A DNA stretch of 43,045 bases from Ectothiorhodospiraceae bacterium (GTDB lineage Bacteria; Bacteroidota; Ignavibacteria; SZUA-365; GCA-2699105). The stretch's first letter is position 1. Every line of letters begins with the position of its first letter. The stretch spans positions 1 through 43,045 of the forward strand of contig PABJ01000003.1 in the NCBI GenBank assembly GCA_002699105.1. The letters run 5' to 3'. Below are positions 6,424 through 32,158 of the stretch, piece after piece. Both the position numbers and the translations under genes were made by a program. Under the pieces are notes generated by a model. It was not told the origin of the DNA and did not search any database. It saw only the letters and a program-made list of their open reading frames with translations.

Positions 6424-9066
6424 TTACGGTCCGATATTGATGGTACACGGACGAATGGCGAAGACCCAATAGCCTTTCCCCGGCTCCACTTCCGAAGCGA
6501 TGGTAAACTGTCCGCCGTCAAATCCGAACAACCCTCCAATCGAATTCGCCGGTGTACTTGTGACCCGTGAAACGGGGATTGGCTCTGAAAGCGATCCGAC
6601 GAGATTCCAGGTATAGGCTTGGGAAACCGTATATGTCGCAGATTGTATCGGCGTACCGCCATTGATGATGGTTCTCGGCCCATTGAAATACACGAAATAG
6701 CCTTTGCCGCTCTCTGCTTGTGACACTGCCTGGTATTGCGCTCCGTCGAATTCCCAAACAGCGCCGGAGATGCCGCTAAATACGTAGTCAACGTCCCAGC
6801 GGGAAGGCATGACCGGCACAGAAACTATGTTCCACCCTTCATCTACGGTATGGACGATGGGCTTCGTCCATCTTGTGAAGCGTCCAGCTGTTTTATTTCC
6901 TGCGATCGTAAAGCTGCCACCCACATAGAATCCGCTATCTGTAGGAGCGAGAGAGTAAACTATATCATTTGTTCCGGAACCGAGTGTTTCCCACGTGGAG
7001 TCTGTCCATCGGCCGATATTGCCAGTGGATATCCCACCCGCCGTAGTGAATCCACCTGCCACATATACGTCGCCGTCGAACTCGGCGATGGAACGAACAG
7101 CTCCGTTGGTTCCAGACCCGAGAGGCTGCCAGGCCCCTCCATACCATTTCGCGATGCAGTTAGCTGCTGAACTACCAGCTGTGGTGAAGAATCCCCCGGC
7201 ATAGAGTGCAGTGTCGACGGAGGTTAGCGCTGTCACTGTGTAGTTCATTCCGCTACCAAGCGCTGAATAGCTCGTTCCATTCCAGGATGCAATACGGTTT
7301 GCGGAAGCACCGCCTGCCTGGGTGAAACTTCCTCCGACAAAGAGAGTCGTGCTGTCGCTCTCCAACGCATAGACGGCGGCATTCACGCCTGTACCTACAA
7401 CACTCCATGAAGTCCCGTTGAACTCGGCGATATTATGCGGTGGATTGGGAGCTCCAGCAACAGACAACAAGCCTCCTGCATAAAGCTTTCCTTGATGTGT
7501 CTGCAGCGCATTCACACCGCCGCTCAGTCCGAAACCCGCCTGCGACCAGGAACTGCCGTTCCATCGGGCGATACCGCTGACGGAAACTCCGCCGGCGTTT
7601 GTGAAGAATCCGCCCGCGTAGAGATATCCGTTGTACACTTCCATGTATTGAACAGCCTGGTTCGTGCCGCTGCCCAGAGGCATCCACTTGCCATTGACTT
7701 TGCGAGCGATATAATTGACCGCTGTTCCTCCAGCGTTCGTGAAATTACCGCAGATGTATATATCGCCGTTGTAAGTCTCAACGTCGAAGACGGTGTTGTT
7801 CATACCGTTGCCAAGTTGCCGCCAATTCACACCATTGAGTTCAATGATGCTGTTGCATACCACACCGGATAGAATAGTAAATGCTCCGCCGGCAACCAGC
7901 GATAAGCTGTCGGTGACTATCGTATGAACGGTACCGTTTGCACCGTTGCCTAGCGCCGCCCAGGTAACCCCGTTCCAGCGGGCAATATTGCTTACCGATA
8001 TTCCGCCGGCACTGGTGAAGTTCCCGCCTGCGTATATAGCATTGTTATACTTTGTAATCGATCGGACAGTATTGTTGATGCCGGACCCGAGCGAATTCCA
8101 GAAGAAGCCGTCCCATCTCGCAATTTTCGACATGGGAGTGGTTCCGTTGACAAAGTTGAAATTACCTCCGACGTAGAGATTCATTCCATCGGGATATATC
8201 GCATACACATCACCTGCAACACCGCCGCCAACAGTTGCCCATTGCTGGGCCGGAACGTCCCATTTCGCAAAATGACCGGTAAACTTGCCGCCGATATACA
8301 TCTCACCTATGTCGCTTATTGCAATATCAAGAACCTCGCCGTTGGTACCTGTTGCGAGTTGAACCCAGTTGACGCTGTTCCATTTGATGATGTTATTCGC
8401 GTTCATACCGGGAACACCGCCGCCGAAGAGACCGCCAACGTAGAACTGATTGCCATCCGGCACTATGATGTTCACCCGGCCATTGATGCCGGTTCCGATT
8501 GCCGACCAGTTCGGGCCACCGGTCCACTTTGCAATGCGGTTCACAGTAGTGGATCCGCTGTGTATGAATTCGCCCCCGGCATAGATATCATTCCCGACGA
8601 CAGCGATAGTATATACGGTGCTATCGAACCCATCGCCCATCGGGTACCAATTGTAGCCATCCCAGTACGCAATATTCTTTGCGGGGATGCCGCCTACCCT
8701 CGAGAATAAGCCGCCGACATAGATCTTATCATCATGCTGTAGAATGGCATGCACGATGCCGTTGGTTCCGGGCAGTCCATAGCCGTCATCCCACGCTACA
8801 TCAAATGGATCGGGAGTGCCGAGACTGTGTAATTGGGGCTTCTGGATCGGGGCGAACCGAGGTTCTTCACCTGGACGCGAGATCAACCGCAGTCCGCCTG
8901 TATTCGATGAATGATCCTGCGCTGGTACGGCCTTGAGGGTGCCGTCAGGATGAAGATACTCGAGGACACCACCATTCGATGGCGGAGTATAGCGATCCTG
9001 TGCCCGCAGCATTGTTATGCAAAGAGCGAACATCGAAATCAATGTGAGTAATACGACCCGCTTCAT
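6424..9066 (-). CDS. Secreted delta-60/kelch-like beta-propeller repeat protein with non-canonical C-terminal 'GWNIVSVP' module
   Basis: Signal peptide MKRVVLLTLISMFALCITMLRAQ; many ~46-aa repeats with YAGG.FT.AGG...IA.WNG..W..LG.G.N; no canonical T9SS CTD. Confidence 0.8.
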   Translation of the reverse strand: MKRVVLLTLISMFALCITMLRAQDRYTPPSNGGVLEYLHPDGTLKAVPAQDHSSNTGGLRLISRPGEEPRFAPIQKPQLHSLGTPDPFDVAWDDGYGLPGTNGIVHAILQHDDKIYVGGLFSRVGGIPAKNIAYWDGYNWYPMGDGFDSTVYTIAVVGNDIYAGGEFIHSGSTTVNRIAKWTGGPNWSAIGTGINGRVNIIVPDGNQFYVGGLFGGGVPGMNANNIIKWNSVNWVQLATGTNGEVLDIAISDIGEMYIGGKFTGHFAKWDVPAQQWATVGGGVAGDVYAIYPDGMNLYVGGNFNFVNGTTPMSKIARWDGFFWNSLGSGINNTVRSITKYNNAIYAGGNFTSAGGISVSNIARWNGVTWAALGNGANGTVHTIVTDSLSLVAGGAFTILSGVVCNSIIELNGVNWRQLGNGMNNTVFDVETYNGDIYICGNFTNAGGTAVNYIARKVNGKWMPLGSGTNQAVQYMEVYNGYLYAGGFFTNAGGVSVSGIARWNGSSWSQAGFGLSGGVNALQTHQGKLYAGGLLSVAGAPNPPHNIAEFNGTSWSVVGTGVNAAVYALESDSTTLFVGGSFTQAGGASANRIASWNGTSYSALGSGMNYTVTALTSVDTALYAGGFFTTAGSSAANCIAKWYGGAWQPLGSGTNGAVRSIAEFDGDVYVAGGFTTAGGISTGNIGRWTDSTWETLGSGTNDIVYSLAPTDSGFYVGGSFTIAGNKTAGRFTRWTKPIVHTVDEGWNIVSVPVMPSRWDVDYVFSGISGAVWEFDGAQYQAVSQAESGKGYFVYFNGPRTIINGGTPIQSATYTVSQAYTWNLVGSLSEPIPVSRVTSTPANSIGGLFGFDGGQFTIASEVEPGKGYWVFAIRPCTINIGP

Positions 9067-9088
9067 GGTGGTACCCGAGTAATAAAGG

Positions 9089-9865
9089 TTAACGGAGGAG
9101 CATCATCCGGCGTGTCTGAACGAATTCACCGCTGATTAACCGACAGTTATACATACCGCTCGCGACTTCATGCCCATCGTCGCTACGGCCATCCCAGCTT
9201 AGTGTGTGCGTGCCTGGTGCGATGTCGCCTGAATGCAGGGTTCGTATCTTCCGTCCGAGGGAATTGAAGATTTGGATCTCGGCAAAACCGCGCGTCTCGT
9301 TCGAAAACTGAATCGTGGTGGATGGGTTGAACGGGTTGGGGTAGTTCTGCTGCAAGGCAAAAGAGGACGGATTTACAACCTCATCTACATCGGATAAGAC
9401 CGAGAAATTGAGCGCCAATTCGTAATTGGTTATGGGTTGATTGTCTTTATCTGCTGCGACGATGTTCTTCACACGGAATCCGAATGGATCTTCTACCCAT
9501 ACACCATTGAGGACGAAGACGATTTGCTTTTGACCCGGCTTGACCGTCGTCCCGCCTGCATCGTACGCGAGGAGCACGAATACTTTGTCATGTTCACGGA
9601 TCTTCGGATTATTCGGGCCGGGGATCGGACCGAAAATCGTCTGAATTTTGTCTGCATCCTCGGGCAACTGATCGATACCCGTGAATTCGAATTGCAGGCC
9701 GCGGATTTGCACTTTGTTATCCATCCGGACAGCAATCTGCTGCTCGGAAACAAATACCTCCAGTTTCACGTCGCCCTGAGCGAGCGCCTGCGGTTGAATG
9801 TGCTGTATTGGCAATGCCGTAATGGCAATCATGATCGATAGAAATGCGAACTTCGCTGCGTTCAT
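9089..9865 (-). CDS. Secreted protein, cohesin-like domain + T9SS type A sorting domain
   Basis: Signal peptide; QIRGLQFEFTGI / KIREHDKVFVLLAYDAGG matches the C-terminal half of the 9927 product; C-term LQQNYPNPFNPSTTIQF...GTHTLSWDGRSDDG. Confidence 0.8.
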   Translation of the reverse strand: MNAAKFAFLSIMIAITALPIQHIQPQALAQGDVKLEVFVSEQQIAVRMDNKVQIRGLQFEFTGIDQLPEDADKIQTIFGPIPGPNNPKIREHDKVFVLLAYDAGGTTVKPGQKQIVFVLNGVWVEDPFGFRVKNIVAADKDNQPITNYELALNFSVLSDVDEVVNPSSFALQQNYPNPFNPSTTIQFSNETRGFAEIQIFNSLGRKIRTLHSGDIAPGTHTLSWDGRSDDGHEVASGMYNCRLISGEFVQTRRMMLLR

Positions 9866-9926
9866 GAAAAACTCCTTACCACTGGGTTGTTTCTATTCCG
9901 GTGTTATATAATATCTGTGTCGAACC

Positions 9927-12284
9927 CTATCGAATGAGGTTCATCTTTGTTGTTATAGAACCGCTGCTATGCGTGATTCGGCAGAAGTACGTCCCTTGAG
10001 GGAGCTGAAGGCCACTGTCATCGTTCCCATTCCAATCTATGCTATGGATGCCGGCATCGGCCGCATGTACGGTGAGGTCGCGTACCCGTCTTCCGTATGA
10101 ATCGAACACGGCAAGTTCAACGGGACCCGGATCGCGGACTTCGTACGTTATAGTCGTTGATGCGGCGAAGGGGTTAGGGAAGTTTTGATGCAAGGCGATG
10201 CCGCCCGCGACCGGCACTTCACCAATCGAAACCGCTGGCGGTGTCTGATTCAGTATTGCCACTCTCGGATTGATCTCGCGGTTTTTATTATCGGCAATGA
10301 CGATGTCCTCAATGCCGGCCTCATCATGCGATACTGTCCAGGAACAGGGGATTGTGATAAGGTGATTGCCGGAGCCAGCCGGAATTGAATTTCCGGAAGC
10401 GCTATAGAGCAGAGCGACGGTTGTCCTATCGTGTTCCCTGATTTTCACGGCGGGAGCATCCAGCAATTCGTTTCCACGAACGGAACCGGTGATTGATTCT
10501 ATGCCGTTGAACTCCAACTGCATGCCTTTCACACTTATCGAATTATCCATCATGACGGTGATCCCGCCCGGGTGGATGTAAAACTGAAGCTGGACGGAAT
10601 CGTTCGCAACGGCGTTCCTTTTGGAGAGCTCAATCGGCGGATTGTCGTTCGTAAGGGTTCGTTTGATTGCCTTACCATCGGGGTACTTTCCATCGAGAAT
10701 AACGGTGCCGATTAGCGCTAGATCACGGACGTTGACGCTACCATCGCCGGCAGACCACGAGGCGATATCCCCTCGGCTATAGCCTTCCGGGGTGAGGGGG
10801 CCTTCGCCAAGAATATGCCCGACGACATCGATGATGTCATTGAGATTGACGCGGTCATCGATATTTACATCACCTTTGTCGATCCGGTTTTCGACGTAAA
10901 TCACCTGCGGGGATCCCGGAATAATCAATGCATCTTCTCCGAAAGGTGTTGAACCGAGCACGTCCATGAACTTCATCGCCGTCGCGGGTACAGCCGATGT
11001 ACTTATGTTCACGACGTCGTACTCAATTTCGAACAGGTTGGGATATGTGCCGGGCTCCAGTTCCTCAGTAAGGCCGAGGATTACCACGCTAAATGTGTCG
11101 TTCCTGCTGCCATCGCTCTGCATCTCTCCCTCACGGAGCGGTGCGTCGGGGAAGAGCCATGCATCGGGATTTGCTATCGCACTGCCTCTGCGAAGGTCGC
11201 GGAACCTGATCTTACCATTCGTATTGACAATTTTGAATTGGAGCGACTTTAGCGGTTCGCCTGTGTATGCGTACAACCCGATAGAATCGATATAGCCGTT
11301 CGTGTTATCGAGGCGAAGCCGTTCGGAAGCGGCAAAGGCCAGGGTTCCACCCTGAGGGCCGCCTTGGTTGTAACCCGTCCCTGAGAGTTCTACAAAACTC
11401 GTATCCCCTTGTCCCGTGTGAACGATCGTTAATGTTCGAGAGTACACGATCTGGTCTATTGGGAAAAACTCTACATCGAATGATAGCTGATCTTGCGGAT
11501 CTATTACAACCGGAAGGAACGGCATATTCTGGATCGTGAATGCTCCGCCCGGTAACTCAATTTCATCGACGCGGATAGTATCACCTACGCTTGGATTGCT
11601 GAGTGTGAGCGTCATATTGGCCTTCGTTCCTGTGAGAACATTGCCAAATGCTAGCGGATTCGGGGCTGCATTCAAGGCAGGGGAACTGCCCCCGCTGCCG
11701 GAACCGAAGGCTCCGGTCTTGATAATGACGACTTGATATTCGGTCAGGAACTGCGGATTTATGGTAATCTGGCCCACACCAAGCATATCACTGGCAGGGA
11801 AGGCATTTCCACCAAGCGGTTTGATCACCCACTGACTTGCGTATTGATTTATAACCGACGGCCAAACGATGGTCACGGTATTCGATTCAATGAGTGCCCC
11901 CGATATTTCAATTCGAAACGAATCTACCTGAGCTGCATCGCTGAAGCCTCTGAAATCGGTGTTCGTTCCAGTACCGAGACCGGTCGGGTAGGCTGAGGCT
12001 CTTCCCGGCAGGGTCGTAAATCTGACATCCAGAGGATACGGGGCAGGCGGTTTTGGGGGCAACTGGAGTTCGCGCCATATTCCAAACGATGTATCGACAT
12101 CAACGCCGATCGTATTATCGAGTATGATGCCGCCGGTTCCGTCCCCACTGACGCCAAGTTCGAGTGTTCTTGATGCGGTGTCGCATAGTACAGTCACAGG
12201 GACCTTGAACTGCGCTTGTGCATGCGCTGAGAGCGGAATAATTGCCGATATAAGGAGTGCTGTAAGGAGAGTTTTAATTTTCAT
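9927..12284 (-). CDS. Secreted modular protein: shared N-terminal domain + choice-of-anchor-D (HYDIN)-like + cohesin-like + dockerin-like + T9SS CTD
   Basis: Start at 12284 gives MKIKTLLTALLISAIIPLSAHAQ; FGNVLTGTKANMTLTLSNPSVGD; KGDVNIDDRVNLNDIIDVVGHILG...GDGSVNVRDLALIG; LHQNFPNPFAASTTITYEV. Confidence 0.8.
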   Translation of the reverse strand: MKIKTLLTALLISAIIPLSAHAQAQFKVPVTVLCDTASRTLELGVSGDGTGGIILDNTIGVDVDTSFGIWRELQLPPKPPAPYPLDVRFTTLPGRASAYPTGLGTGTNTDFRGFSDAAQVDSFRIEISGALIESNTVTIVWPSVINQYASQWVIKPLGGNAFPASDMLGVGQITINPQFLTEYQVVIIKTGAFGSGSGGSSPALNAAPNPLAFGNVLTGTKANMTLTLSNPSVGDTIRVDEIELPGGAFTIQNMPFLPVVIDPQDQLSFDVEFFPIDQIVYSRTLTIVHTGQGDTSFVELSGTGYNQGGPQGGTLAFAASERLRLDNTNGYIDSIGLYAYTGEPLKSLQFKIVNTNGKIRFRDLRRGSAIANPDAWLFPDAPLREGEMQSDGSRNDTFSVVILGLTEELEPGTYPNLFEIEYDVVNISTSAVPATAMKFMDVLGSTPFGEDALIIPGSPQVIYVENRIDKGDVNIDDRVNLNDIIDVVGHILGEGPLTPEGYSRGDIASWSAGDGSVNVRDLALIGTVILDGKYPDGKAIKRTLTNDNPPIELSKRNAVANDSVQLQFYIHPGGITVMMDNSISVKGMQLEFNGIESITGSVRGNELLDAPAVKIREHDRTTVALLYSASGNSIPAGSGNHLITIPCSWTVSHDEAGIEDIVIADNKNREINPRVAILNQTPPAVSIGEVPVAGGIALHQNFPNPFAASTTITYEVRDPGPVELAVFDSYGRRVRDLTVHAADAGIHSIDWNGNDDSGLQLPQGTYFCRITHSSGSITTKMNLIR

Positions 12285-12348
12285 CTGACTGCCTCGCAAT
12301 GCTGTTCCATCGTCCATTGTTGTTTGGTCCAATACCTGCCAATCGTTG

Positions 12349-12918
12349 CTATCTTTTTACCTTCGGCTCGCGAACCAATACTCCATTAAGGATGATTCGC
12401 AACATCTTCACTTTGTTGTCATCAATGGCGAGAGAGCCAGTCGAGAGCATATCGATCGATCGCATCCCGCTATCCGTTTCATACTCCAGATCGACGTACT
12501 TAAAGCGGTCGGACTTTACACCGCGCCATGTAAATCGCATCGGCCAATTGTCCATGGAGGGCTGAAACCGAACTTGGAATGTGTCTGTCTGTTCAATGCT
12601 GTGGAATTTTCTCATATCGAGATAACAGCCGTCGCTTGGATCTCGCGGCATATTCGGCAGATCGATGAGGCGTAGGTCGAACGCCCCTTGCATTGGCACC
12701 GGAGGAGTCGGAAACTCTCCGAGGTCGTAGTTATAGTAGTAGGTAGCTTCCTCGTGCACTCCGAAGTGCACTGCGTTCTTGTGCCCTGCCGCATCTATCC
12801 CGACGAATTCGATTGTTATTGCATCGACAGGATAGTCTGCGGCAGCAGGCTGAGCGCAGAGTGGGACTGCGCTCAGTACTGACAAGAGTATTGCGGCGAC
12901 GATGTTCCGCTTGATCAT
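12349..12918 (-). CDS. Secreted protein, divergent stand-alone copy of the shared N-terminal domain, no CTD
   Basis: Signal peptide MIKRNIVAAILLSVLSAVPLCAQ; FPTPPVPMQGAFDLRLIDLPNMP...TFQVRF matches QLPPTPPPPYDFDVRFTTLPGR...SFRV of neighbours. Confidence 0.65.
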   Translation of the reverse strand: MIKRNIVAAILLSVLSAVPLCAQPAAADYPVDAITIEFVGIDAAGHKNAVHFGVHEEATYYYNYDLGEFPTPPVPMQGAFDLRLIDLPNMPRDPSDGCYLDMRKFHSIEQTDTFQVRFQPSMDNWPMRFTWRGVKSDRFKYVDLEYETDSGMRSIDMLSTGSLAIDDNKVKMLRIILNGVLVREPKVKR

Positions 12919-12945
12919 GCTGAAATCCGTACAATAACCGGTGTG

Positions 12946-13815
12946 TTACTTAACCAGAACCATCGATTTGGATTCCGAGTAGTCGCCGCTTTGAATCCGG
13001 TAGAAGTAGCGTCCGCTAGGCAGATGCGAACCGTCGATACTATACGTATACGTTCCTGCATTTTGCGATTCGTTGATCAGCGTACGCACAACTTCGCCTG
13101 CTGCATTTGAGAGTACTACGGTGACATTTGCGCGTTCAGGTATGCTGTACGAGAACGTAGTTGTTGGGTTGAACGGATTCGGGTAGTTCTGAGATAGCGA
13201 ATACCCCTCAGGGATCGTGGCGTCATAGTCTTCGATGCCAACCGTCGGATCTTTTGCGCCGACCTTAATGATGAGTGCCTGCAGCGGTCCGAATGCTGCG
13301 GGGAGCACTGCTTCGGTGTTCGCAATCATATCGACCGGACCCCAGGAACCCGGCCCCAATGGCTGGATAACCCAGGAATCGGCGTATTTATCTAGATTAT
13401 CGGGCCATGTAATGGTCGCACCATTGTTCTCGATCGATGAACCGCTCATATATACACGGAAGGAATCTACCTGCGTAGAACCAAAGAAATGGCGGAAGTC
13501 GTTCTGAAGTCCGGTGCCGAAACCCAGTGGAACTGCAGACGGGCGACCCGGCAAGGTTGTGAAACGCACGTCGAAATCGTACGGCGGCGGAGGGGTGGGA
13601 GGAAGCTGTGCTTCGTAGTAATCGGGATCGATGCCCGGATTGGTATCGAAGTCGTCGATACCGTAATTCGCATCAGGATGAATCCCGATGGAAAGCGTGT
13701 TAGAGAATGATGTTGAGGTTATCTCAATTGGGAGTTTCCACGCTGGTGCCTCCTGCGCAGAAACGGCGGCTGTAAACAACAGTACCAGCGTAGAAACGAG
13801 TACAACGTTCTTCAT
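12946..13815 (-). CDS. Secreted protein: shared N-terminal domain fused directly to T9SS CTD
   Basis: MKNVVLVSTLVLLFTAAVSAQ; QLPPTPPPPYDFDVRFTTLPGRPS; LSQNYPNPFNPTTTFSYSI...SGRYFYRIQSGDYSESKSMVLVK. Confidence 0.85.
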   Translation of the reverse strand: MKNVVLVSTLVLLFTAAVSAQEAPAWKLPIEITSTSFSNTLSIGIHPDANYGIDDFDTNPGIDPDYYEAQLPPTPPPPYDFDVRFTTLPGRPSAVPLGFGTGLQNDFRHFFGSTQVDSFRVYMSGSSIENNGATITWPDNLDKYADSWVIQPLGPGSWGPVDMIANTEAVLPAAFGPLQALIIKVGAKDPTVGIEDYDATIPEGYSLSQNYPNPFNPTTTFSYSIPERANVTVVLSNAAGEVVRTLINESQNAGTYTYSIDGSHLPSGRYFYRIQSGDYSESKSMVLVK

Positions 13816-14099
13816 GAGTTCTCACCTGTAGAAGTATCTATTGTAGTTTGGTTGATTGTGCACTATGTAGTTTCGAAATATAGCCAAGCCGCGTGCTCTA
13901 TACAATGGATGTAAGGTCACGAAAATAGAGTTAACACAATGATAACCGGTTCGTGCGACCTATTGGATTCGCAACAATAACATAACAGAATGCGAATAGG
14001 TATGTTATTGTTATATAACATATCGCACCAATGCACCGCTGCTGGTAACACTTGCATAATGAAATATTGAACCCGCCGTAATCTACGGGGGAACCAAAA

Positions 14100-14130
14100 A
14101 AGCACGAAGTGATTATAATTATCCGTGCTT
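14100..14130 (-). terminator. Putative intrinsic terminator after the 14140..16440 gene
   Basis: AAGCACG...CGTGCTT stem followed on the minus strand by a T-run. Confidence 0.5.
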
Positions 14131-14139
14131 AAAATCGGC

Positions 14140-16440
14140 CTATTGTACGATGGTCAGCAGCCTTGACTGTACGGTGCTACCCGCTTCCAATCTGTAGATA
14201 TACGTGCCCGCCGGCAGCGATTTGCCAGCATCATCTGTTCCGTTCCAACTGATGTTTTGGATGCCTGCCCTGGACGGTTGGAACGGGAACGTAGCCAACC
14301 GTTCGCCAAGAAGGCTATACACCGATACGGTCCCGGTAACATTCGTTGACTGAGTTATAGTGAATATTGTTCGATCGCGGAATGGGTTCGGGTGATTCTG
14401 CAGCAGCTGGATGTTATCTGCCGCGTTGATGGGCCTGGCCGAGCTTATCTGGACGTCGAGTGCGAGGTTCCGCATATCCGCCGCAATAACTTTCGATACG
14501 GCATGATGGCCGTCAACAGGAATCCGTGCTACTGTGTGTATTCCGGCCTTTAACGCTTGCCCATCGGTGTTGTACAGTACCGCATGAAGGTTCGAACCGT
14601 CTGTATTCGATACGGCAATATCGAAAGGTGAGTCAAGAATATCTCCACAGTTTTCAGCCATCATTTCAATCTCGAAGCCGCGCACCGGGACTTCACAGGA
14701 TGCCTGAATATACAAGAATCCATCCCGGACTTCGGTGAACACTTCAATGCGATTCGAAGATTTACTCAATGATCCGTCTAGTAGTGAAAGTAGGGTCCCA
14801 TTCGGATACTGTCCATCTACAATAATTGTTTGAAGCAACGCTAGATCACCCGCATCGACAGATTGGTCGCCGATCGGGCCGCTGTTTGGCCAAGGAGCAA
14901 CATCGGCACGTTGAAATGCCTCTCCCTCCAATTCTTGAATCTGCAGGATATGATCGATAATTGTCAAAATGTCGAGGATATTAACGGTGCCGTCGAGATT
15001 TGCGTCGCCTTTCGTGATCCCGGCGTTGTTCAGAATGCAGATGGTCTGACCGTCCCCTGGATTTATGCCTAAGTTTTGACCGTTACGGTTCGCACCAACA
15101 ACGTTTATTATTTCAAGTCTTCCCAGAGCGGTATCTCCGGGAATATCAACAGTTTGATAATACAGGTCGACAAGGCTTCCAGTGTGGACGCCGCTGGAAT
15201 AGACATTCTGCCCGAAGCCCAGAAGAACGCACTTCAGGGTATCCTGTGTGCTAAAATCGGGATTGGGCTGGCCGTTCACGATGACATAACTGAATCCCCA
15301 TTTGCTGGGATCCTGAATCTCCGCTCCTCGCTTCACCCGCGTCATGAGTAATCCACCCTTTGTTGACACGACGAAGAATTGTAATGCGGAGAGGTTACCA
15401 TTCGATGTATCATGGTTCGCAAGACTTATCTGGGCAACATTGCCTACAGATTTGTCATTAACATATACCAGTGTATCGTCGAAGGTTAGCTGGTTTTGTG
15501 CAACGGTTGTTGCGTTCCCTTCGAGTGCAATGTTCATCGTCGTCCCGGGATTGGGATCGTTGTGAGTGATCGTGAGCGTTCCTTGCTCAAGACCGGCTGT
15601 TGCAGGGGCATCAAATTTGACGGTATAGGTCTCGGTAGCCTGAGGCGCTATAACTACCGGAAAGCTGCCTGGCGCGTTGACTATAGAGAAGCTCGCGCTT
15701 CCATTCAACGACATAGCGCTGATTTCCAGGTTGTTTGTCGCACCGCCGTTTTTGATCGTCAAGGTTTTCGTCGTGGATTGACCGATTTGCACATTGCCAA
15801 AGCTCATCGTCGTGGGATTGGCAAGGAAAGTCGGTCCCGGTGGGGGAGGTGCGCTGTATTCCGTTACAATAACGAGGAAATTGATAGGACCGAACTGTGC
15901 ACCGACTGTGACGCTAGTCGAACTCGTCATGTCGGTTGCGCTAAAAGTCGGCGGTCCGAGTGGTTTAATCGTCCACGAACTTGCCAGGCTGCTGAGATCG
16001 CTCGGCCAGCTTATTATCACACCGTTGTTGTCAACATCGCTTCCTTGGCATTGAACCCGGAATGTATCAATCTGATTGAGCGAAGAGAAACCCCGATAGT
16101 CCTCCCCGAATCCTGTACCGAAACCTGTTGGGAATGTGGATACGCGGCCCGGGGGCGTAAGAAGGCGAATATCGAAGGCAAACGGCGGGGGCGGAGTTGG
16201 CGGCAATTGGGATTCATCCCAATCGGGTGCGTAGGCTGGGTCGGTATCGGCGCTTACGGTATTATCGAGGATAGCACCTCCTGGTCCATCCCCGTTTACG
16301 CCAAGAGTAAACGTGTTAGAATTTGTTTGCGATCCATCCGAAACGGTGATGATCCGTTTAAATGAAACCGATTGTGCATGCCCAACCGCACTGAGTATTA
16401 GCAGCGCGAGGAAGCAAAACAGTATCCCTCTTCTTCTCAT
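14140..16440 (-). CDS. Secreted modular protein: shared N-terminal domain + HYDIN-like + cohesin-like + dockerin-like + cohesin-like + T9SS CTD
   Basis: Start at 16440 gives MRRRGILFCFLALLILSAVGHAQ; QLPPTPPPPFAFDIRLLTPPGR; KGDANLDGTVNILDILTIIDHIL...VDAGDLALLQTII; LLQNHPNPFRDRTIF. Confidence 0.8.
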   Translation of the reverse strand: MRRRGILFCFLALLILSAVGHAQSVSFKRIITVSDGSQTNSNTFTLGVNGDGPGGAILDNTVSADTDPAYAPDWDESQLPPTPPPPFAFDIRLLTPPGRVSTFPTGFGTGFGEDYRGFSSLNQIDTFRVQCQGSDVDNNGVIISWPSDLSSLASSWTIKPLGPPTFSATDMTSSTSVTVGAQFGPINFLVIVTEYSAPPPPGPTFLANPTTMSFGNVQIGQSTTKTLTIKNGGATNNLEISAMSLNGSASFSIVNAPGSFPVVIAPQATETYTVKFDAPATAGLEQGTLTITHNDPNPGTTMNIALEGNATTVAQNQLTFDDTLVYVNDKSVGNVAQISLANHDTSNGNLSALQFFVVSTKGGLLMTRVKRGAEIQDPSKWGFSYVIVNGQPNPDFSTQDTLKCVLLGFGQNVYSSGVHTGSLVDLYYQTVDIPGDTALGRLEIINVVGANRNGQNLGINPGDGQTICILNNAGITKGDANLDGTVNILDILTIIDHILQIQELEGEAFQRADVAPWPNSGPIGDQSVDAGDLALLQTIIVDGQYPNGTLLSLLDGSLSKSSNRIEVFTEVRDGFLYIQASCEVPVRGFEIEMMAENCGDILDSPFDIAVSNTDGSNLHAVLYNTDGQALKAGIHTVARIPVDGHHAVSKVIAADMRNLALDVQISSARPINAADNIQLLQNHPNPFRDRTIFTITQSTNVTGTVSVYSLLGERLATFPFQPSRAGIQNISWNGTDDAGKSLPAGTYIYRLEAGSTVQSRLLTIVQ

Positions 16441-16649
16441 TCCAGTCCCCTGGATAGGTAATAAAATGTAGTTATGATGGAAGGTTGTACAGCGTATGCG
16501 GCGAGAGACCGAATACAACACAGATGCAGGCGCCGTCAAGCGCTTTGCATACCTATAACGACATTATGGAGACGGGTACAAAAAGGTGTGTAGCGGCTCC
16601 AAGTTCTCAATACCAAAATGTAACAGATTGGGAAGGATAATTCCAAAAA

Positions 16650-16674
16650 AACGCCGACTATTTGAGTCGGCGTT
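16650..16674 (-). terminator. Intrinsic terminator after the orphan CTD ORF
   Basis: 10-bp stem AACGCCGACT-ATTTG-AGTCGGCGTT with T-run on the minus strand. Confidence 0.75.
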
Positions 16675-16697
16675 GGATGGCAAATTTATACGGTGAG

Positions 16698-17006
16698 CTA
16701 TTTTGCGAGGACCATCGTCCTGGTCGCGTGAAACTCGCCTGCGCTCATCTTGTAGATGTACACCCCGGAAGAAGCTTCCACATTGTCCTGCGTTCGGGCG
16801 TCCCAATAAAAGTTATGAGTACCTGCCTCCAAATGTCCTTCGTACAGCGTGCGGATACGCTGACCGAGCTGATCGTAGACTTCCACGATCACATCCTGCT
16901 CCTCTGGCAAAATGACCGGTATCGCTGTGACAGGATGAAAAGGGTTCGGGTAGTTCGCGCCGAGGTCGTACCCGCCGCTCGCTGTATTTTCTGAATTCAA
17001 GGGCAT
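16698..17006 (-). CDS. Orphan T9SS type A sorting domain without signal peptide
   Basis: 102 aa, essentially only the CTD: LGANYPNPFHPVTAIPVIL...GTHNFYWDARTQDNVEASSGVYIYKMSAGEFHATRTMVLAK; AAAGGA upstream of ATG at 17006. Confidence 0.6.
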   Translation of the reverse strand: MPLNSENTASGGYDLGANYPNPFHPVTAIPVILPEEQDVIVEVYDQLGQRIRTLYEGHLEAGTHNFYWDARTQDNVEASSGVYIYKMSAGEFHATRTMVLAK

Positions 17007-17084
17007 AGTCTCATCCTTTCATTCATTTGTTGTTCTACTAGGAGGCGTTCAGTCTCTTCATATTCGCCGGATCAAGTCTCTGGT

Positions 17085-17753
17085 CTATCGCAGCGAAAGC
17101 TCGGCGAGAAGATTCAAGACATCGTATTCGGCAGTGATTAAGCTGGATGCATTGTTTCGCTCTGGTGTGGGGCGAACATCCATTTTTGTTCTCACTTCAA
17201 TCTGCTTTCCCGATTCAAGCGCTATCCTCTTGCCAGAGGCTGTGATTGCGTAGGCATTCAAGATTTTGAATTCCTCCGGAAGTATTGCACTGCCTTGTGA
17301 ACTCACACACCCTAGGTGTAGGAGCGAACGCAACTTCTCGCTTGCTGCGTCGGAATCTGTATCGACTCGGTATATCACACAGCGAACGATATTCTGGTGT
17401 TTCCCATCATTTGTTAGCTCTTGATCGACACTGGCGGCGAAATGCCAGCTGTCAATATCGCCCGTGATACTCGTCGGCATGACATCTTCAATCTTCACAT
17501 TCGAATTCTCACAAGAGAGGTAAAACTGAACGGTCGAAATAGGATCGGAAGCATCAGACACTGTGAGTTCAACCGTCATATTGTGCATCGATTGCGCTGC
17601 AGGTGCAGCTTCTCGTGTCTGATCTGTTTGCGTCCATGGAGATGTGCTTGCGGCAATCAATGCGTCAACCGATAGGTTTTGCGCACCGGCAGAACCAAGC
17701 ATAAGTGTCGCCAGGGCGAGCACTGAGATGATAAAGCTATTTCGAATTTTCAT
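17085..17753 (-). CDS. Secreted protein with cohesin-like domain, lacking its own CTD
   Basis: MKIRNSFIISVLALATLMLGSAGAQ signal peptide; ORF 17085..17828; stops ~80 nt before the same-frame orphan CTD ORF. Confidence 0.65.
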   Translation of the reverse strand: MKIRNSFIISVLALATLMLGSAGAQNLSVDALIAASTSPWTQTDQTREAAPAAQSMHNMTVELTVSDASDPISTVQFYLSCENSNVKIEDVMPTSITGDIDSWHFAASVDQELTNDGKHQNIVRCVIYRVDTDSDAASEKLRSLLHLGCVSSQGSAILPEEFKILNAYAITASGKRIALESGKQIEVRTKMDVRPTPERNNASSLITAEYDVLNLLAELSLR

Positions 17754-17946
17754 GTTCATTGTCATCGAATTGTTGCGATACGATGGATGTAGTACATTCA
17801 CACGTTTTAGATGCAATATCCAGGCCAAGACGTCACGTAGGAACTAACTCCTTGTGTATCAAGGACTTGTGTTATTTACGGTCCGGAAGTTCTATTGAAG
17901 TGTCATGAAAATCTTACACCTTATCGCGATTCCTGCATAAAAAGAA

Positions 17947-17972
17947 CCAGCCTCCCAAGTACGGGAGGCTGG
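17947..17972 (-). terminator. Intrinsic terminator after 18007..20310
   Basis: CCAGCCTCCC-AAGTAC-GGGAGGCTGG, then a T-rich tract on the minus strand. Confidence 0.75.
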
Positions 17973-18006
17973 CTATTTCGAGTAGCGTATCCGCTACATT
18001 GGATGC

Positions 18007-20310
18007 TTACTTGGAGAGAAGCATCGTCCGGGTAGCGGAGAAGCCATCGGCTGCCATGCGATAGACGTAGACGCCGGAAGAAACGGCGTTGCCGTTATCA
18101 TCCATGCCGTTCCACGTCACGACGTTGTTTCCGGCTTCCATGGTGCCATTGACGAGCGTGCGAACCTTCATACCGAGGCTGTTGTACACTTCGATCGTCA
18201 CGTTGCTTGTGTAAGGAACGTTGACGGAGAAGCTTGTGCTTGGGTTAAAAGGATTCGGGTAGTTGCTGCCAAGTGCGAATTCGGCTGGCGTGCTGCCGAG
18301 ACCCTGCTTCGTGACCTTCACGTTGAGAGCATTGTTGTTCTCATCTGCGACGGTAACGTTTGCGAATGCGAAGTTGAAGCCTTCGACTGGGATTTCTGCG
18401 ATAACCGTCTGGCCTGCCGGGATGACAGAACCTTCGACATCGTAGATAACCGTGCGGAGTGCGCCATCAACATAACCCGTGTGGGCATCGCCGAAGCTGC
18501 TGTTGATAGTACCTGCGAGGGCTGCACCCTTGATATCGAACTGAAGACCCTTGATTGCGGCTTCGCTATTGACGGAAACCGTCACGATACCGTTATCAAC
18601 CGAGTAGAGAAGCTCGACGTTGCCTTCGGCTTTGCTGAGGCTGCCGCCGGTAAGCGAAAGGAGCGTTCCATTCGGGTACTGACCATCAGTGATAACCTTC
18701 TGGATGAGTGCGAGATCCTGAGCGTTCACGGCACCATCACCGGAGAGAGACGGTGTGACGTTGTTCCACGGAGCGATGTCCGCGCGCTCGAAGTCCGGGC
18801 TGACGAGAGGATCGACGCCGAGGATGTGATCGATAACTTCGAGGATATCAAGGATGTTGATGGTACCGTCGCTGTTAGCGTCACCCTTGGTGATACCAGC
18901 CTGGTTGAAGATCTTCACAACCTGGTCTGCATCCGGCGTAATGGTAAGAGCGTCACCATCGGCATTGGAAGCGACAAGCGCTGCAATGTGAAGGTTGGCG
19001 GTAACCGAGTCGGCTGAGATGTCGGTCGAACGGTATGTGAAGTCGATAAGCGAACCAGGATAGAGACCCGTGGTGAGCGACTGGGTAAGGCCCCAAAGCA
19101 CGACCTTAATGGTATCGTTCGAACTGAGGTCGGCATTGACCGGACCGTTTGCAATCGTGTAGCTGAAACCCCACTCTGCTGGATTCGACACTTCGCTACC
19201 GCGGCTGACGCCTGTAAGGCTGAGTCCGCCGGCATTGCTGATGACGAATACCTGAAGTGCTGCGAGGTCGCCGCCAGCGGAAGAAGCATCGAAGTTACCG
19301 ATAGAAAGAGATTCGGTAAGACCGATGGTGTTGTCGTTCACGGCAACTTCATCGGCGGAGAATGCGAGTTCGTTCTGGTTTGCAGCTGCAACAGTTGCGG
19401 TCAGGTTGATGGTGCTCACCGTACCCGCAGTCGGGTCGTTGTGCGTGAAGTCGATCGTTGCATTGACAGGTCCGCCGACGCCAGGTGCGGTGAACTCGAT
19501 ATCAACGGTAATGGAGCCGCCGTTGGCAGGAACGGTTGCCGGAAGGGTCGGGGAACTGGTAACCGTGTAAGCTGCATCGGTCGGGGTGCCGATCGCCGTG
19601 ATTTCGAGATCGTTGCTCGTACCGGGGTTCGTGATCGTAAGGGTCTTGGTGACAGTGTTGAGAGAAGTGACATTACCGAAATCAAGCGGGTTGTCGCTCG
19701 GGGAAAATGTCGGGCCAGGGCTTGCCGGTGCGTTGTAGTTCGTCACGATGATGAGGAACTGGATCGGACCGAACGTCGAGGGAATGGTGAGGCTCGACTG
19801 CGTGGTCATGTTGGCGCTTGCTGCACCGCCGAGCTGCTGGATTGTCCAGCTGGAAGCGGCATTCGTGATCGTGGAAGGCCAGCTTACGATAACGCCATTG
19901 CTCGCGACTGCATCACCTGTACAGGAAACGCGGAAGGAGTCAATCTGGCTTGTGCTGGTGTAACCGCGGTAGTCGGAACCGAGACCCGTACCGAGACCGG
20001 TCGGCCATGTGGAGACGCGACCCGGAAGAGTCGTGAAGCGCACATCGAAATCGTACGGCGGGGGAGGGGTCGGGGGAAGCTGTGATTCTTCGTATGCGCC
20101 GAAAGCTGCGCCAACGTCGCCGCCAACAGTGTTGTCGGTGACCGAGCCGCCTGCACCATCGCCGCTAACGCCGAGGTTCAGTGTATTCGAGAAGGTCGAG
20201 TTGCCATCTTCGATCGTTATAGGAATCGAGAATTGCGGAAGAGTCTGCGCAAAGGAAACGCCTGCGAGAACCACAAGCAATGCTGCAGTCGTGAGAATGT
20301 TCTTTCGCAT
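18007..20310 (-). CDS. Secreted modular protein: shared N-terminal domain + HYDIN-like + cohesin-like + dockerin-like + cohesin-like + T9SS CTD
   Basis: Start at 20310 gives MRKNILTTAALLVVLAGVSFAQ; QLPPTPPPPYDFDVRFTTLPGR; KGDANSDGTINILDILEVIDHILG...VNAQDLALIQKVI; LGSNYPNPFNPSTSFSV...SATRTMLLSK. Confidence 0.85.
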   Translation of the reverse strand: MRKNILTTAALLVVLAGVSFAQTLPQFSIPITIEDGNSTFSNTLNLGVSGDGAGGSVTDNTVGGDVGAAFGAYEESQLPPTPPPPYDFDVRFTTLPGRVSTWPTGLGTGLGSDYRGYTSTSQIDSFRVSCTGDAVASNGVIVSWPSTITNAASSWTIQQLGGAASANMTTQSSLTIPSTFGPIQFLIIVTNYNAPASPGPTFSPSDNPLDFGNVTSLNTVTKTLTITNPGTSNDLEITAIGTPTDAAYTVTSSPTLPATVPANGGSITVDIEFTAPGVGGPVNATIDFTHNDPTAGTVSTINLTATVAAANQNELAFSADEVAVNDNTIGLTESLSIGNFDASSAGGDLAALQVFVISNAGGLSLTGVSRGSEVSNPAEWGFSYTIANGPVNADLSSNDTIKVVLWGLTQSLTTGLYPGSLIDFTYRSTDISADSVTANLHIAALVASNADGDALTITPDADQVVKIFNQAGITKGDANSDGTINILDILEVIDHILGVDPLVSPDFERADIAPWNNVTPSLSGDGAVNAQDLALIQKVITDGQYPNGTLLSLTGGSLSKAEGNVELLYSVDNGIVTVSVNSEAAIKGLQFDIKGAALAGTINSSFGDAHTGYVDGALRTVIYDVEGSVIPAGQTVIAEIPVEGFNFAFANVTVADENNNALNVKVTKQGLGSTPAEFALGSNYPNPFNPSTSFSVNVPYTSNVTIEVYNSLGMKVRTLVNGTMEAGNNVVTWNGMDDNGNAVSSGVYVYRMAADGFSATRTMLLSK

Positions 20311-20347
20311 TGTGTATAAATCTCCGTGAAAAATTGTTGTGTTCATG

Positions 20348-23300
20348 TTATTGGGCAATGGTCAACGTGGTCGAACCGGTTACGAATACCCAGTAGGCTT
20401 CGAACGGCTGGAGGACGGTAACTGCTTCGTAACCCGAACCGGTGTAGCGGAAGAAGGATCCTGAGATGCTTCCCGGGCCGGAGCTGGTAACATTCGAGGT
20501 CGGAATGGCGCGGCAGAGACCGCCAACGAGGACCCACTGTGCGCCAGGCACGGTGATCTGTGCGGACTCGACGCAGTCGCCGGTGACCTGTACTTCATCG
20601 TCGCTTGAGTAGAAGGTCCAGTAACCGAGACCCGGTGTGGCAAAATCGACTGCGGAGTAGCCTGCACCCGTAAACGAGAACACGCTGCCGCCGTTCGGCC
20701 ATACCGTGCGGACGTCCTTGTTGTACGCATCACGAGGAAGCGAAACGAGGTTCCATCCTCCGCGGACGTTGGAGATAGTTGCGTTCGGGGTCGAGTTGCA
20801 GATCAAGTAGTTCTGCGGATCGAATTGTGCCCACTTCGCTGTCCACTGCTCATCCATCGACTTGGCGGGATCGAAAGCACCGCGGTAGCTCGTGCTCTGG
20901 AAGAATGCTGCGCTGAGGTTCGTCGATGCGGAGAAGTCCGTACCGGCCGTTGCAGGCTCGGAAGCGATGCCCGGGCGCGGATCGGGATTGTTGAGGTTGC
21001 TCATATCGACGAGGCCGACAGCACTCGGGACGCGGACGCCTGTGCCGCCATCGTTGTTGTAGGAAGCAGTGTTGAACCAGGTGCTGGCCGTGAAGCCTGC
21101 TGGATCTGCACCGGAGCTATGGACAACCGGGAAGACCGTACCGCTGGCGGAATCATTGACTGCCAAGCTGATATTGCGTGCCTGGAGCGTATCGCCCTGG
21201 GCTGCTGTCTTCGTTTGCGGATCGCGGATGGAGTATCCGCCTTGGAAACCGACGAGTACAGAGTTGTGGATCGACTGCTGCGTACCGCGACGGCTCACGA
21301 CTGCATACTGATGACGTGCTTGAGCATCGGGGTTCGGAAGCGTGATACCTGCAACGCGGCGCGGACCGACGAGGGTGATGTTCGAGAATTTCGGCTTCGT
21401 ACGCGGAACGTCATAGGAAGCGGAACCTTCGTTATCAGATTCGAAACCATTGGTCTGACCGGCGAGATCCCACACGTTCGGGTCCTTAAGACCGAATGCG
21501 AACTGGATGTTGCCGCTGAAACCGAAGTCGGTATCGAATTCGTCATCGGTGCCGCCGAAGTTGATGATGTTGCGAGCATTGACGGTACCGCCAAAGAACT
21601 CGAAGCCGTCGTCGAAGGAATAGCTGACCTGGACGTTTTCGATCGTCGTACCGGCACCAATGCCGCCCATGGTGAGGCCGTTGATTTCGTTATCGAGATG
21701 GAAGCGGTAGCCCGGGAATTCGATACGGACATACTTCACAATACCGCTGTTGTCGTTCGGATTGCTGCCGCCGTAGGAACCAGGAACGATACCGCCTTCG
21801 ATCTGCGGGTTGACCTGGTTGGTCGGAGCTTCACCAAGGATAACGACACCACCCCAGTCGCCGCGGCCACGAAGACCAGGCGCTTTGCGGCCGGCCATGA
21901 TGATCGGCTGCTCGGGGGTACCCTGTGCAAATATCTTGCCGCCACGGGAAACGACGAGCGTTGCAGCCGTATCGCCTTTAATGACAGTACCCGGCTCGAT
22001 GGAAATCGAGTAGGTGGAATCGATGAGGTAAAGACCGGTGAGGATGTAGGTGGTATCGCTGCTGAGAACGCGATCCCAATCCTGATGATAGACCGTACGG
22101 CCTGTGCCGAGTCCCGGTCCCATAACGACTTCCGGAGCAGCAATACCAGCCGTGTAGGATGTATTCTGCGGATCGAAGTTCGACCAGCCGGCTGCCCACT
22201 GGTTACCGACCGTGCTCACATCGAATGCGCCACGATAGGAGGTGGAATCAAAGTAGCCGAGATCGAGATTCGTACCGGTGAAGAGCGTACCTGCCGTCAA
22301 CGGCTCGCTGCCCGGGGTCGGACGCGGATCCGGTGCGGTAAGGCTCGACATGTTGTTAAGGCCGACTGCACTCGGGGCGCGGACGCCTGTGCCGCCATCG
22401 TTGTTGTAGGATGCGGTGTTGAACCATGTGCTGGCGGTGAAGCCTGCCGGGTCTGCACCGGAGCTGTGAACAACCGGGAAGATGGTACCGCTGGCGGAAT
22501 CATCGACTGCGAGGCTGATGTTGCGTGCCTGGAGCGTATCTCCCTGGGCGGCCGTCTTCGTCTGCGGATCGCGGATGGAGTAACCGCCCTGGAAACCGAC
22601 GAGCACGGAATTGTGGATCGACTGCTGCGTACCGCGACGGCTGATCACGGCGTACTGATGGCGACCCTGAGCATCGGGGCTCGGAAGGGTGATACCAGCA
22701 ACGCGGCGCGGACCGACGAGCGTAATGTTCGAGAATTTCGGCTGTGTACGGGGGATATCGTAGGAAGCAGAACCCTCGTTATCGGATTCGAAGCCGTTCG
22801 TCTGACCGGCGAGATCCCAGATGTCCGGGTTCTTGAGGCCGAATGCATACTGGATGCGACCGCTGTATCCGAAGTCGGTATCAAAGTCGTCATCGGTACC
22901 GCTGTAATTGATGAGGTGCTTCGCGTCGACGGTACCGCCGAAGAATTCGAAGCCGTCATCGAACGAGTAGCTAACCTGAACGTATTCGATGGTCGTACCG
23001 CGACCGACGCCGCCCATGGTAAGACCGTTGATTTCGTTATCGAGCTGGAAGCGGTAGCCCGGGAACTCGATACGAACGTAGCGGAGGATACCGCTGTTAT
23101 CGTTCGGCTTGTTGCCGCCGTAGGAACCAGGAACGATACCGCCTTCGATCTGCGGGTTAACCTGGTTCGTCGGTGCTTCACCGAGGATGACGACGCCGCC
23201 CCAGTCGCCGCGTCCGCGGGAACCGGCCGGTTGATTGGAAGTAAAGACGATGGGACGATCCTGCGTACCGTTGGCGATAAGCTTACCGCCGCGGGAAACA

Positions 23301-23545
23301 ACGAGCGTCGAGGCGGTATCGCCCTTGATGAGCGTACCAGGCTGAATCGTCATCGTGACGTTCGAGTCAATAAGAAACAGACCAGTAAGGGTATACACCG
23401 TATCGGAATACAGGGTAATATCCTTATCCTGGTGGTAGACGGTACGGCCTGTGTTCAGACCAGGACCAAGAATACGCGTCTGCGAAATCGCGGGGCTTGC
23501 GAGCACTGCTGCAAGCAAGGCGACAACCAGAAGAGTTTTCTTCAT
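20348..23545 (-). CDS. Large secreted protein with two tandem ~449-aa repeats and a C-terminal 'GWNLVSLP' module
   Basis: Start at 23545 gives MKKTLLVVALLAAVLASPAISQ; GPGLNTGRTVYHQD... and GPGLGTGRTVYHQD... repeated 1347 nt apart; GDWGGVVILGEAPTNQVNPQIEGG present in both. Confidence 0.8.
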   Translation of the reverse strand: MKKTLLVVALLAAVLASPAISQTRILGPGLNTGRTVYHQDKDITLYSDTVYTLTGLFLIDSNVTMTIQPGTLIKGDTASTLVVSRGGKLIANGTQDRPIVFTSNQPAGSRGRGDWGGVVILGEAPTNQVNPQIEGGIVPGSYGGNKPNDNSGILRYVRIEFPGYRFQLDNEINGLTMGGVGRGTTIEYVQVSYSFDDGFEFFGGTVDAKHLINYSGTDDDFDTDFGYSGRIQYAFGLKNPDIWDLAGQTNGFESDNEGSASYDIPRTQPKFSNITLVGPRRVAGITLPSPDAQGRHQYAVISRRGTQQSIHNSVLVGFQGGYSIRDPQTKTAAQGDTLQARNISLAVDDSASGTIFPVVHSSGADPAGFTASTWFNTASYNNDGGTGVRAPSAVGLNNMSSLTAPDPRPTPGSEPLTAGTLFTGTNLDLGYFDSTSYRGAFDVSTVGNQWAAGWSNFDPQNTSYTAGIAAPEVVMGPGLGTGRTVYHQDWDRVLSSDTTYILTGLYLIDSTYSISIEPGTVIKGDTAATLVVSRGGKIFAQGTPEQPIIMAGRKAPGLRGRGDWGGVVILGEAPTNQVNPQIEGGIVPGSYGGSNPNDNSGIVKYVRIEFPGYRFHLDNEINGLTMGGIGAGTTIENVQVSYSFDDGFEFFGGTVNARNIINFGGTDDEFDTDFGFSGNIQFAFGLKDPNVWDLAGQTNGFESDNEGSASYDVPRTKPKFSNITLVGPRRVAGITLPNPDAQARHQYAVVSRRGTQQSIHNSVLVGFQGGYSIRDPQTKTAAQGDTLQARNISLAVNDSASGTVFPVVHSSGADPAGFTASTWFNTASYNNDGGTGVRVPSAVGLVDMSNLNNPDPRPGIASEPATAGTDFSASTNLSAAFFQSTSYRGAFDPAKSMDEQWTAKWAQFDPQNYLICNSTPNATISNVRGGWNLVSLPRDAYNKDVRTVWPNGGSVFSFTGAGYSAVDFATPGLGYWTFYSSDDEVQVTGDCVESAQITVPGAQWVLVGGLCRAIPTSNVTSSGPGSISGSFFRYTGSGYEAVTVLQPFEAYWVFVTGSTTLTIAQ

Positions 23546-30614: not shown

Positions 30615-31256
30615 CTAGTTCAACAGCCTCCGGAATTCTTCAGGCAAGCCTTCTTTGTAAACCGCTGCATCCTGAAGCCAGTGCAATTCATGCAGATATG
30701 CCTGCCGGGAGCCATGTATCCATGTGATGGATGTATTGGACTTCAATGCTGTAATTGTACCTCCAATAGCGCCAAATGATGTCCCTAAGAAAATGCTCAA
30801 TATCATGACTCCTCGCACAAGGTCCTCTTCCTCACGCTGATTTTCGATATTCCCTGCTACAATTTGATAGATAGCAATACCTAAGACCAATCCTATCCCA
30901 GTATACGCACCAATTCGAAATCCCGACCCGAAAGACCCGCCCTCCGTGAGTTCGACGACACCAGCCAGTCTTTTCGCTGGTACGTACCATACCTTAGTCG
31001 ATTCATCTTCCTCGAAGAAGAGATACGGCGAATTGCCTAGGTAGAGCCCACTTGAATCTGCAGCAAGGACAGAAGCATTTGCGAATACAAACTCCTCGCC
31101 ATCCATCCAGATAAAGGACTTATCGTACAGTGCGTTCTCGAGATCGTAATCGTCCAGATCCAGGTCCGCAAGGGATTTGAATCGATGCACTTCCTGTGCG
31201 GTACTGACCGTGCCGCATCCGATAAACAGCAGTATGACAGTCAGGACGCGCATCAT
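30615..31256 (-). CDS. Glycine-zipper membrane protein, divergent member of the local paralogous family
   Basis: Signal peptide; two Gly-rich TM segments (IGAYTGIGLVLGIAIYQIV; GVMILSIFLGTSFGAIGGTI); C-term YKEGLPEEFRRLLN. Confidence 0.6.
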   Translation of the reverse strand: MMRVLTVILLFIGCGTVSTAQEVHRFKSLADLDLDDYDLENALYDKSFIWMDGEEFVFANASVLAADSSGLYLGNSPYLFFEEDESTKVWYVPAKRLAGVVELTEGGSFGSGFRIGAYTGIGLVLGIAIYQIVAGNIENQREEEDLVRGVMILSIFLGTSFGAIGGTITALKSNTSITWIHGSRQAYLHELHWLQDAAVYKEGLPEEFRRLLN

Positions 31257-32158
31257 TTATAGATGTACCTGTATAATTCGGGAGGGAGGCCGTATCTGTA
31301 GTACATGAGCTCGCGCAATCGGCTGATTTCATCTTCACCGGAGTTGTCACCATCTGAAGTATCTACCGAAATCAGTCCGTCATCGGCCGCTCCGATAATA
31401 GCACCGATACCGGCTCCCGCAAGTCCAGAAACCAATCCTACTGCGAGGCTGATCGAATATGTACGTAGGTCCTCGTTGGGTGCGCCGGCGCTCGGATCGA
31501 TGATCGCGATTGTAGCGATTCCGCCAACCCCGCCGATAAGAAAACCATACAACGCTGATGAAGTGATTGGCTTTGGTTCATCCACAGAAAGGAAGGTAAT
31601 GTCATCTGTCTCGGCGATATAGAGATCGGAAATATCCGGGATATCGCTATACAGGTGATTTAACGGGCCAAGAACGATATGCTTGGAATTCACATGCAGT
31701 AGTTTTCCATAATACTCATCTCCCTGCTTCGTACGGACTTGAACATCCTGCAGACTGTAGTCCAAATACCCGCCAAAGATGCCGGTCTTCCAGATGCTAT
31801 TGATAGGATATTTTTTTGTATAGAACCGGTCGTACGAAGATCGGTAGTCGTTGGTCGTGTAGCGGATCTCCTCGTAGTTCTGTATCACGGTGGAAAATGC
31901 TTCCCACTGCTCCTCTGTTAGTACCCAACGCTTCTCTTCCCTATTGTCTCTGTAGGCGATAAGGAGATAGTAGCCAGTATTCATACGAAACGCACGAGCC
32001 TCTCGAAACCCGGAGAGTTTAGGGAATAGCTGAAAATACGCGCGCTCGTACGGTTCGATGCTCTCTCCGAGACGATCAGATATGACCACCGCATCAAATT
32101 GTGCATTTGCGAAGAAGAAAGGGAAAACGATTACAATGAGGAAGACTGACTGTTTCAT
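31253..32158 (-). CDS. Paralogous family member: signal peptide, 'RLGESIEPYERAYFQLFPKLSGF', two Gly-zipper TM, 'YYRYGLPPELYRYIYK'
   Basis: 4-nt overlaps with both neighbours; shared motifs with 32155, 33069 and 35449 products. Confidence 0.75.
   Translation of the reverse strand: MKQSVFLIVIVFPFFFANAQFDAVVISDRLGESIEPYERAYFQLFPKLSGFREARAFRMNTGYYLLIAYRDNREEKRWVLTEEQWEAFSTVIQNYEEIRYTTNDYRSSYDRFYTKKYPINSIWKTGIFGGYLDYSLQDVQVRTKQGDEYYGKLLHVNSKHIVLGPLNHLYSDIPDISDLYIAETDDITFLSVDEPKPITSSALYGFLIGGVGGIATIAIIDPSAGAPNEDLRTYSISLAVGLVSGLAGAGIGAIIGAADDGLISVDTSDGDNSGEDEISRLRELMYYRYGLPPELYRYIYK

Follow-up and report, generated by a model that had tools for sequence, protein, structure and literature searches.

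To our knowledge, the T9SS has so far been described as requiring a CTD on the cargo itself. Because prediction of T9SS cargo relies on CTD matches, CTD-less surface proteins like the two considered here, P0001 and P0002, would go unnoticed. The type A CTD (TIGR04183 and PF18962; FlgD_ig, PF13860, also scores) folds as a seven-strand Ig-like sandwich according to excerpts of PMC12618676. Alternative T9SS signals unlike type A are the type B CTD (TIGR04131) and, as described in part of PMC10202324, the type C CTD (ChiA type, cl41395). The gene for a type B substrate often has that of its cognate shuttle as a neighbour, again according to excerpts of PMC12618676. Two further systems invite comparison: dockerin-cohesin pairing, where a C-terminal domain joins a protein to an anchor-bearing partner, and the surface lipoproteins of Bacteroidota.

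The window analysed here is a 43,045-nucleotide stretch of a Bacteroidota genome (74% complete) in which P0001 and P0002 end in the same domain of about 140 aa, hereafter the module, found only twice in this genome and both times in the window. Like the type A CTD, the module is C-terminal in window proteins and occurs on exported proteins of T9SS-positive Bacteroidota, and the two interchange within a family. Unlike that CTD, it consists of two repeats, has about double the length, lies mostly internally ahead of a type A CTD, and has no profile or sequence similarity to 51 type A CTDs (hhalign probability 0.1%). TIGR04131 and CHU_C, for type B, found no match in the modules, and no ChiA-type match came from Pfam or NCBIfam, which may hold no type C model; the module's neighbours are exported LPP-CTD proteins (LPP being a domain of the form LPPxPP...FDVRF) rather than recognised PorP/SprF-like shuttles. 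The likeness to dockerin-cohesin pairs is one of proposed principle, and one propeller homologue of P0001 is dockerin-like at its end; however, the module has no match to dockerin models, the LPP domain has none to cohesin, and module-LPP binding is so far a proposal. Surface lipoproteins offer a parallel in that about 20 helix-family homologues of P0002 carry a lipobox in place of a CTD, whereas the N-termini of P0001, P0002 and their orthologues in the window's order, as read, have no lipobox cysteine at the signal-peptide end.

P0001 (6424..9066, minus strand; 880 aa) is exported, with the N-terminus MKRVVLLTLISMFALCITMLRAQ, and consists of a Rax2/DUF5122-type beta-propeller followed by the module. 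The two repeats of the latter, with approximate boundaries, lie at 6637..6849 (about residues 740-810, GWNIVSVPV...GKGYFVYF) and 6427..6636 (about residue 811 to the last residue, 880; WNLVGSL...GKGYWVF), both on the minus strand. P0002 (minus strand) spans 20348..23545 when counted from its ATG, the open frame continuing to 23668. It too is exported (N-terminus MKKTLLVVALLAAVLASPAISQ) and carries two helix-family repeats of about 450 aa, identical at 349 of 449 aligned residues, ahead of module repeats at approximately 20564..20773 (GWNLVSLPR...GLGYWTFY) and 20351..20563 (WVLVGGL...EAYWVFVTGSTTLTI), again on the minus strand. The N-terminal region of each protein resembles a signal peptide. 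Neither protein matches TIGR04183 or PF18962, as the original prediction had held, and nor does any of 20 aligned modules.

The other large secreted proteins of the window do have a CTD, also in line with that prediction: P0003, P0004, P0005, P0006 and P0008 carry one, together with the shorter ORFs 12946..13815 and 9089..9865, the latter a 258-aa exported protein (minus strand; type A CTD) directly upstream of P0001. Two smaller ORFs, 12349..12918 and 17085..17828, have neither CTD nor module. By eye, the products of 9089-9865 and 17085-17828 look cohesin-like, for which Pfam gave no confirmation. P0009 (24251-26986, minus strand), upstream of P0002, is a TonB-dependent receptor, and large ORFs with barrel-like ends occupy the equivalent place in three related loci (L071, L075 and L077). 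Farther along, 31253-33986 (minus strand) encodes three tandem paralogues of about 305 aa that are some 31-33% identical, with a shorter, diverged fourth at 30615-31256; this group has no Pfam match at E 0.001.

The modules of P0001 and P0002 are 37% identical and align with a Smith-Waterman score of 199; the best of 2000 shuffles reached 79. Each is made of two homologous repeats of about 65-70 aa: half-against-half scores within and between the two proteins range from 61 to 105, all above every shuffle, and a profile-profile comparison of first with second halves gave 99% probability (E 1.7e-18). The homology and the internal repeat of about 65 aa claimed at the outset are thus borne out. 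Residues W6, N7, P12, G50, Y51, G65, W81, Y127 and W128 (P0001 module numbering) are invariant in a 20-member alignment. Searches of Pfam, NCBIfam and PDB sequences returned no match to the module, and it is described in no title or abstract that our literature search found. A weak AF2 model (pLDDT 72.7, pTM 0.59) is all-beta with two similar halves, and found nothing in the PDB at E 0.001 or better (best E 0.18). For neither of these two widespread domains, the module and the LPP domain, do the searched copies of Pfam and NCBIfam contain a model.

A search started from the two window modules matches 156 of 296 genomes of the class; the 20-member alignment matches 104 of 396 phylum genomes and all 16 genomes of the window's order. 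First-look candidates reach about 90-140 per genome in some families. SprA is nearly universal in the class (293 of 296 genomes), so the class is uninformative on T9SS dependence. In the phylum sample of 396, where the lists of module-positive and SprA-positive genomes were cross-matched by reading, the module occurs in 104 of 304 SprA-positive genomes versus none of 92 SprA-negative ones. The Fisher p of 8.7e-15 ignores phylogeny and is overstated, since the genomes share ancestry and one family supplies many of the listed negatives. The module is tied to the T9SS in that this sample has it in SprA-positive genomes only; its presence in genomes lacking the T9SS, which the original prediction had named as evidence against a link, was not seen in any of the 92. 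The window's own genome has SprA (C34) and two PorU-like ORFs that score below the cut-off of the PorU model and have no module match. The order's proteins of about 1700 aa, which are PorU-sized, had suggested a module on PorU, but the one at L068 is a metallopeptidase with a HEIGH motif.

To place the module within its proteins, loci were scanned with locally built profiles for the module, the LPP domain and the CTD; the resulting counts are descriptive, not unbiased rates, because the loci are best-scoring matches and the profiles were partly built from the same sequences. Of 75 distinct modules from outside the window's order, 57 precede an LPP domain and a CTD, 10 precede a CTD without an LPP match and 7 are terminal, with one other case. 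Hence 67 of these 75 are internal with a type A CTD downstream in the same chain, and in 57 of the 67 the LPP domain lies between module and CTD. Within the order the 47 modules comprise 28 terminal ones, 18 internal ones followed by LPP and CTD, and one other (terminal, with a broken match); the 18 all belong to the metallopeptidase type of about 1700 aa, with module, LPP domain and CTD in one chain. In the order's proteins 1-45 aa, proline-rich in some, trail the module. The carriers are unrelated to one another, including propeller, helix, LamG, subtilase and metallopeptidase proteins. The expectation that the module is always C-terminal therefore fails, and because most modules outside the order are internal with a type A CTD after them, the module is no sorting signal as a rule.

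Its terminal position in the order is a different matter. The helix domain of P0002 is present in 197 of 297 phylum genomes. Among distinct helix-family loci with a visible C-terminus, 32 have a CTD, 16 lack one but show a lipobox by pattern, five have the module and six scored as having none of these. Of those six, L161, L233 and L236, and less surely L232, are lipoproteins by eye, which gives about 20 lipoproteins together with those found by pattern; L240 and L241 lack both signals. The five loci with the module all fall in the window's order (G000, G042, G032, G061 and G095), and none combines module and CTD in one protein. A tandem-repeat homologue from G013, L227, is 60% identical to P0002, yet has a CTD at its end. 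The propeller family of P0001 behaves alike, with 17 CTDs, one dockerin-like end by reading (L214) and five modules, all of the latter again in the order. More distant helix paralogues within the order (L177-L181) end in CTDs, so the order has not given up this signal. In both families, then, the terminal module occupies the site of the homologues' surface-delivery signal, be it CTD or lipid anchor. A link between module and surface delivery is credible, given this position and the lack of the module in SprA-negative genomes. What stands of the proposal that the module is an alternative sorting or anchoring signal is its restriction to SprA-positive genomes and, in this order, its replacement of the signal; its usual internal position ahead of a CTD speaks against the rest.

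Some 37 bp separate the stop codon of P0002 from the ATG of P0006 (18007..20310, minus strand), which is preceded by GGAG. P0006, the next gene after P0002, has its own signal peptide, an N-terminal LPP domain (19735..20250), ASH and dockerin-like regions and a type A CTD, and is a candidate docking partner. Further LPP domains, all on the minus strand, lie in P0005 (15856..16377), a 289-aa LPP-CTD protein (13255..13758), a 189-aa protein without CTD (12379..12828) and P0004 (11709..12227). P0004, P0005 and P0006 (9927-20358, minus strand) are three paralogues, each with an LPP domain, an ASH/HYDIN-type Ig domain, a dockerin-like stretch and a CTD. There is moderate evidence that their LPP domain and the one that follows internal modules form one family: hhalign gives a probability of 78% (E 1.8e-5), and both profiles overlap on the same neighbour ORFs. 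A weak structure model of the LPP domain (pLDDT 72.6) had no PDB match better than E 0.3.

Two gene orders recur. In one, a metallopeptidase of about 1700 aa that contains an internal module, an LPP domain and a CTD comes first, then an LPP-domain/CTD protein of 366-559 aa and then a LamG protein of about 940-1030 aa with a terminal module. The other, seen in the window and in L071, L075 and L077, runs from the helix-module gene through LPP...CTD proteins, an LPP-only protein and a CTD protein to the propeller-module gene. Altogether, 19 of the order's 23 terminal-module ORFs adjoin an LPP ORF on the same strand; leaving out a frameshifted metallopeptidase (L085 3323-5191), 18 of 22 intact terminal-module genes stand beside an LPP-domain/CTD gene, often overlapping it or only a few bp away. 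The four exceptions are P0001 and its three orthologues, where a CTD gene adjoins and LPP genes are at least two genes off. Across eight genomes of the order, the LPP profile (A4), which was built from sequences of module clusters and is biased toward finding them, marked 38 sites, all in module clusters except one ORF of about 1590 aa in six genomes; the same eight genomes have at least 120 CTD matches each. That ORF (L135 301-5070, L136 986-5743 and equivalents in four other genomes of the order), the sole LPP ORF there outside module clusters, has an N-terminal LPP domain and a C-terminal CTD. G013, from another order, has a single module, at the end of a subtilase encoded 3 bp downstream of an LPP-domain gene in which no CTD was detected. 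No LPP gene was found near the terminal modules of L021/L140, L138 and L141 in the stretch read. Among the module neighbours scanned, none matched a PorP/SprF-like shuttle; an ORF downstream of the LamG-module gene (L068 10923-12386) had a barrel-like look but no Pfam or NCBIfam match, and was dropped as a dedicated shuttle.

A pair of domains usually fused in one chain and elsewhere split over adjacent genes is a classic hint of interaction. Module and LPP domain show this pattern, which, added to the replacement of surface signals in two families, suggests docking. The module would be an independent extracellular domain of T9SS cargo. Across most of the phylum it would belong to a fixed tail of module, LPP domain and type A CTD; the window's order appears to have this tail partly split between neighbouring genes, so that one protein stops at the module and the product of the adjacent gene starts with the LPP domain and ends with the CTD. 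The CTD-less protein would reach the periplasm via Sec, its terminal module would then bind the LPP domain on the CTD protein encoded next to it, and this partner would carry it to the cell surface or retain it there. We consider it quite possible, if short of probable, that CTD-less terminal-module proteins dock in this way onto LPP-CTD partners, which deliver or hold them at the surface; what we infer from sequence and gene context is that they lie at the surface, that module and LPP domain touch directly, and that the proteins are exported together or captured at the surface. The propeller homologue L214, with its dockerin-like end, offers a parallel for a C-terminal docking domain. Against docking, consecutive domains of one chain need not touch, the P0001 group sits beside a CTD gene and not an LPP gene, L021/L140, L138 and L141 have no LPP gene nearby, and the LPP neighbour in G013 is without a detected CTD.

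Could the terminal module instead be a sorting signal in this lineage, a further CTD type read by the translocon with a shuttle protein? It takes the CTD position in two families and never stands there with a CTD, SprA is found in every module-bearing genome of the phylum sample, and signals other than type A, types B and C, do exist (excerpts of PMC10202324 and PMC12618676). We nevertheless regard this as unlikely: the module is mostly internal with an ordinary CTD after it, resembles neither type A CTDs nor any CTD family in the libraries, is trailed by up to 45 residues, sometimes proline-rich, in the order's proteins, and has no recognised shuttle-like gene next to it. Gene context is at least as favourable to docking onto a CTD-bearing partner as to the secretion system recognising the module directly.

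A plainer account makes the module a general-purpose spacer outside the cell, or a domain that binds a ligand; proteins without a CTD would stay in the periplasm or arrive at the surface by another route, and the clustering would be no more than that of a shared surface-protein locus. The all-beta prediction, the unrelated catalytic and binding domains to which the module is joined and its high candidate numbers in some families all agree with this account, which is conceivable though doubtful, as it leaves unexplained both the tight pairing with LPP-domain genes and why, in this order alone, the module has taken the place of CTD or lipid anchor in the two families. Degeneration, by which a stop codon would have removed the LPP-CTD tail and left pseudogenes in the making, is very improbable for P0001, P0002 and the LamG proteins: several genera of the order share their terminal form, the ORFs are intact and the genes keep their order. 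Tail loss is nevertheless a possible origin of the terminal architecture, and may account for the 7 terminal cases, few and isolated, among the 75 modules elsewhere.

Returning to docking, its stronger form is more tentative: module and LPP domain may be a split docking pair through which the T9SS delivers or retains, in trans via a CTD-bearing neighbour, proteins without a signal of their own. If docking holds, the T9SS handles complexes in which one member only bears the signal. Since CTD, lipid anchor and module replace one another naturally within one family, there is a direct route to test this. Absent from others of the order, a proline-rich tail such as LPPPPPPME, recalling LPPxPP, ends many of the LamG-type terminal-module proteins (L041, L043, L045, L046, L048, L055, L062, L068, L073, L080 and L085).
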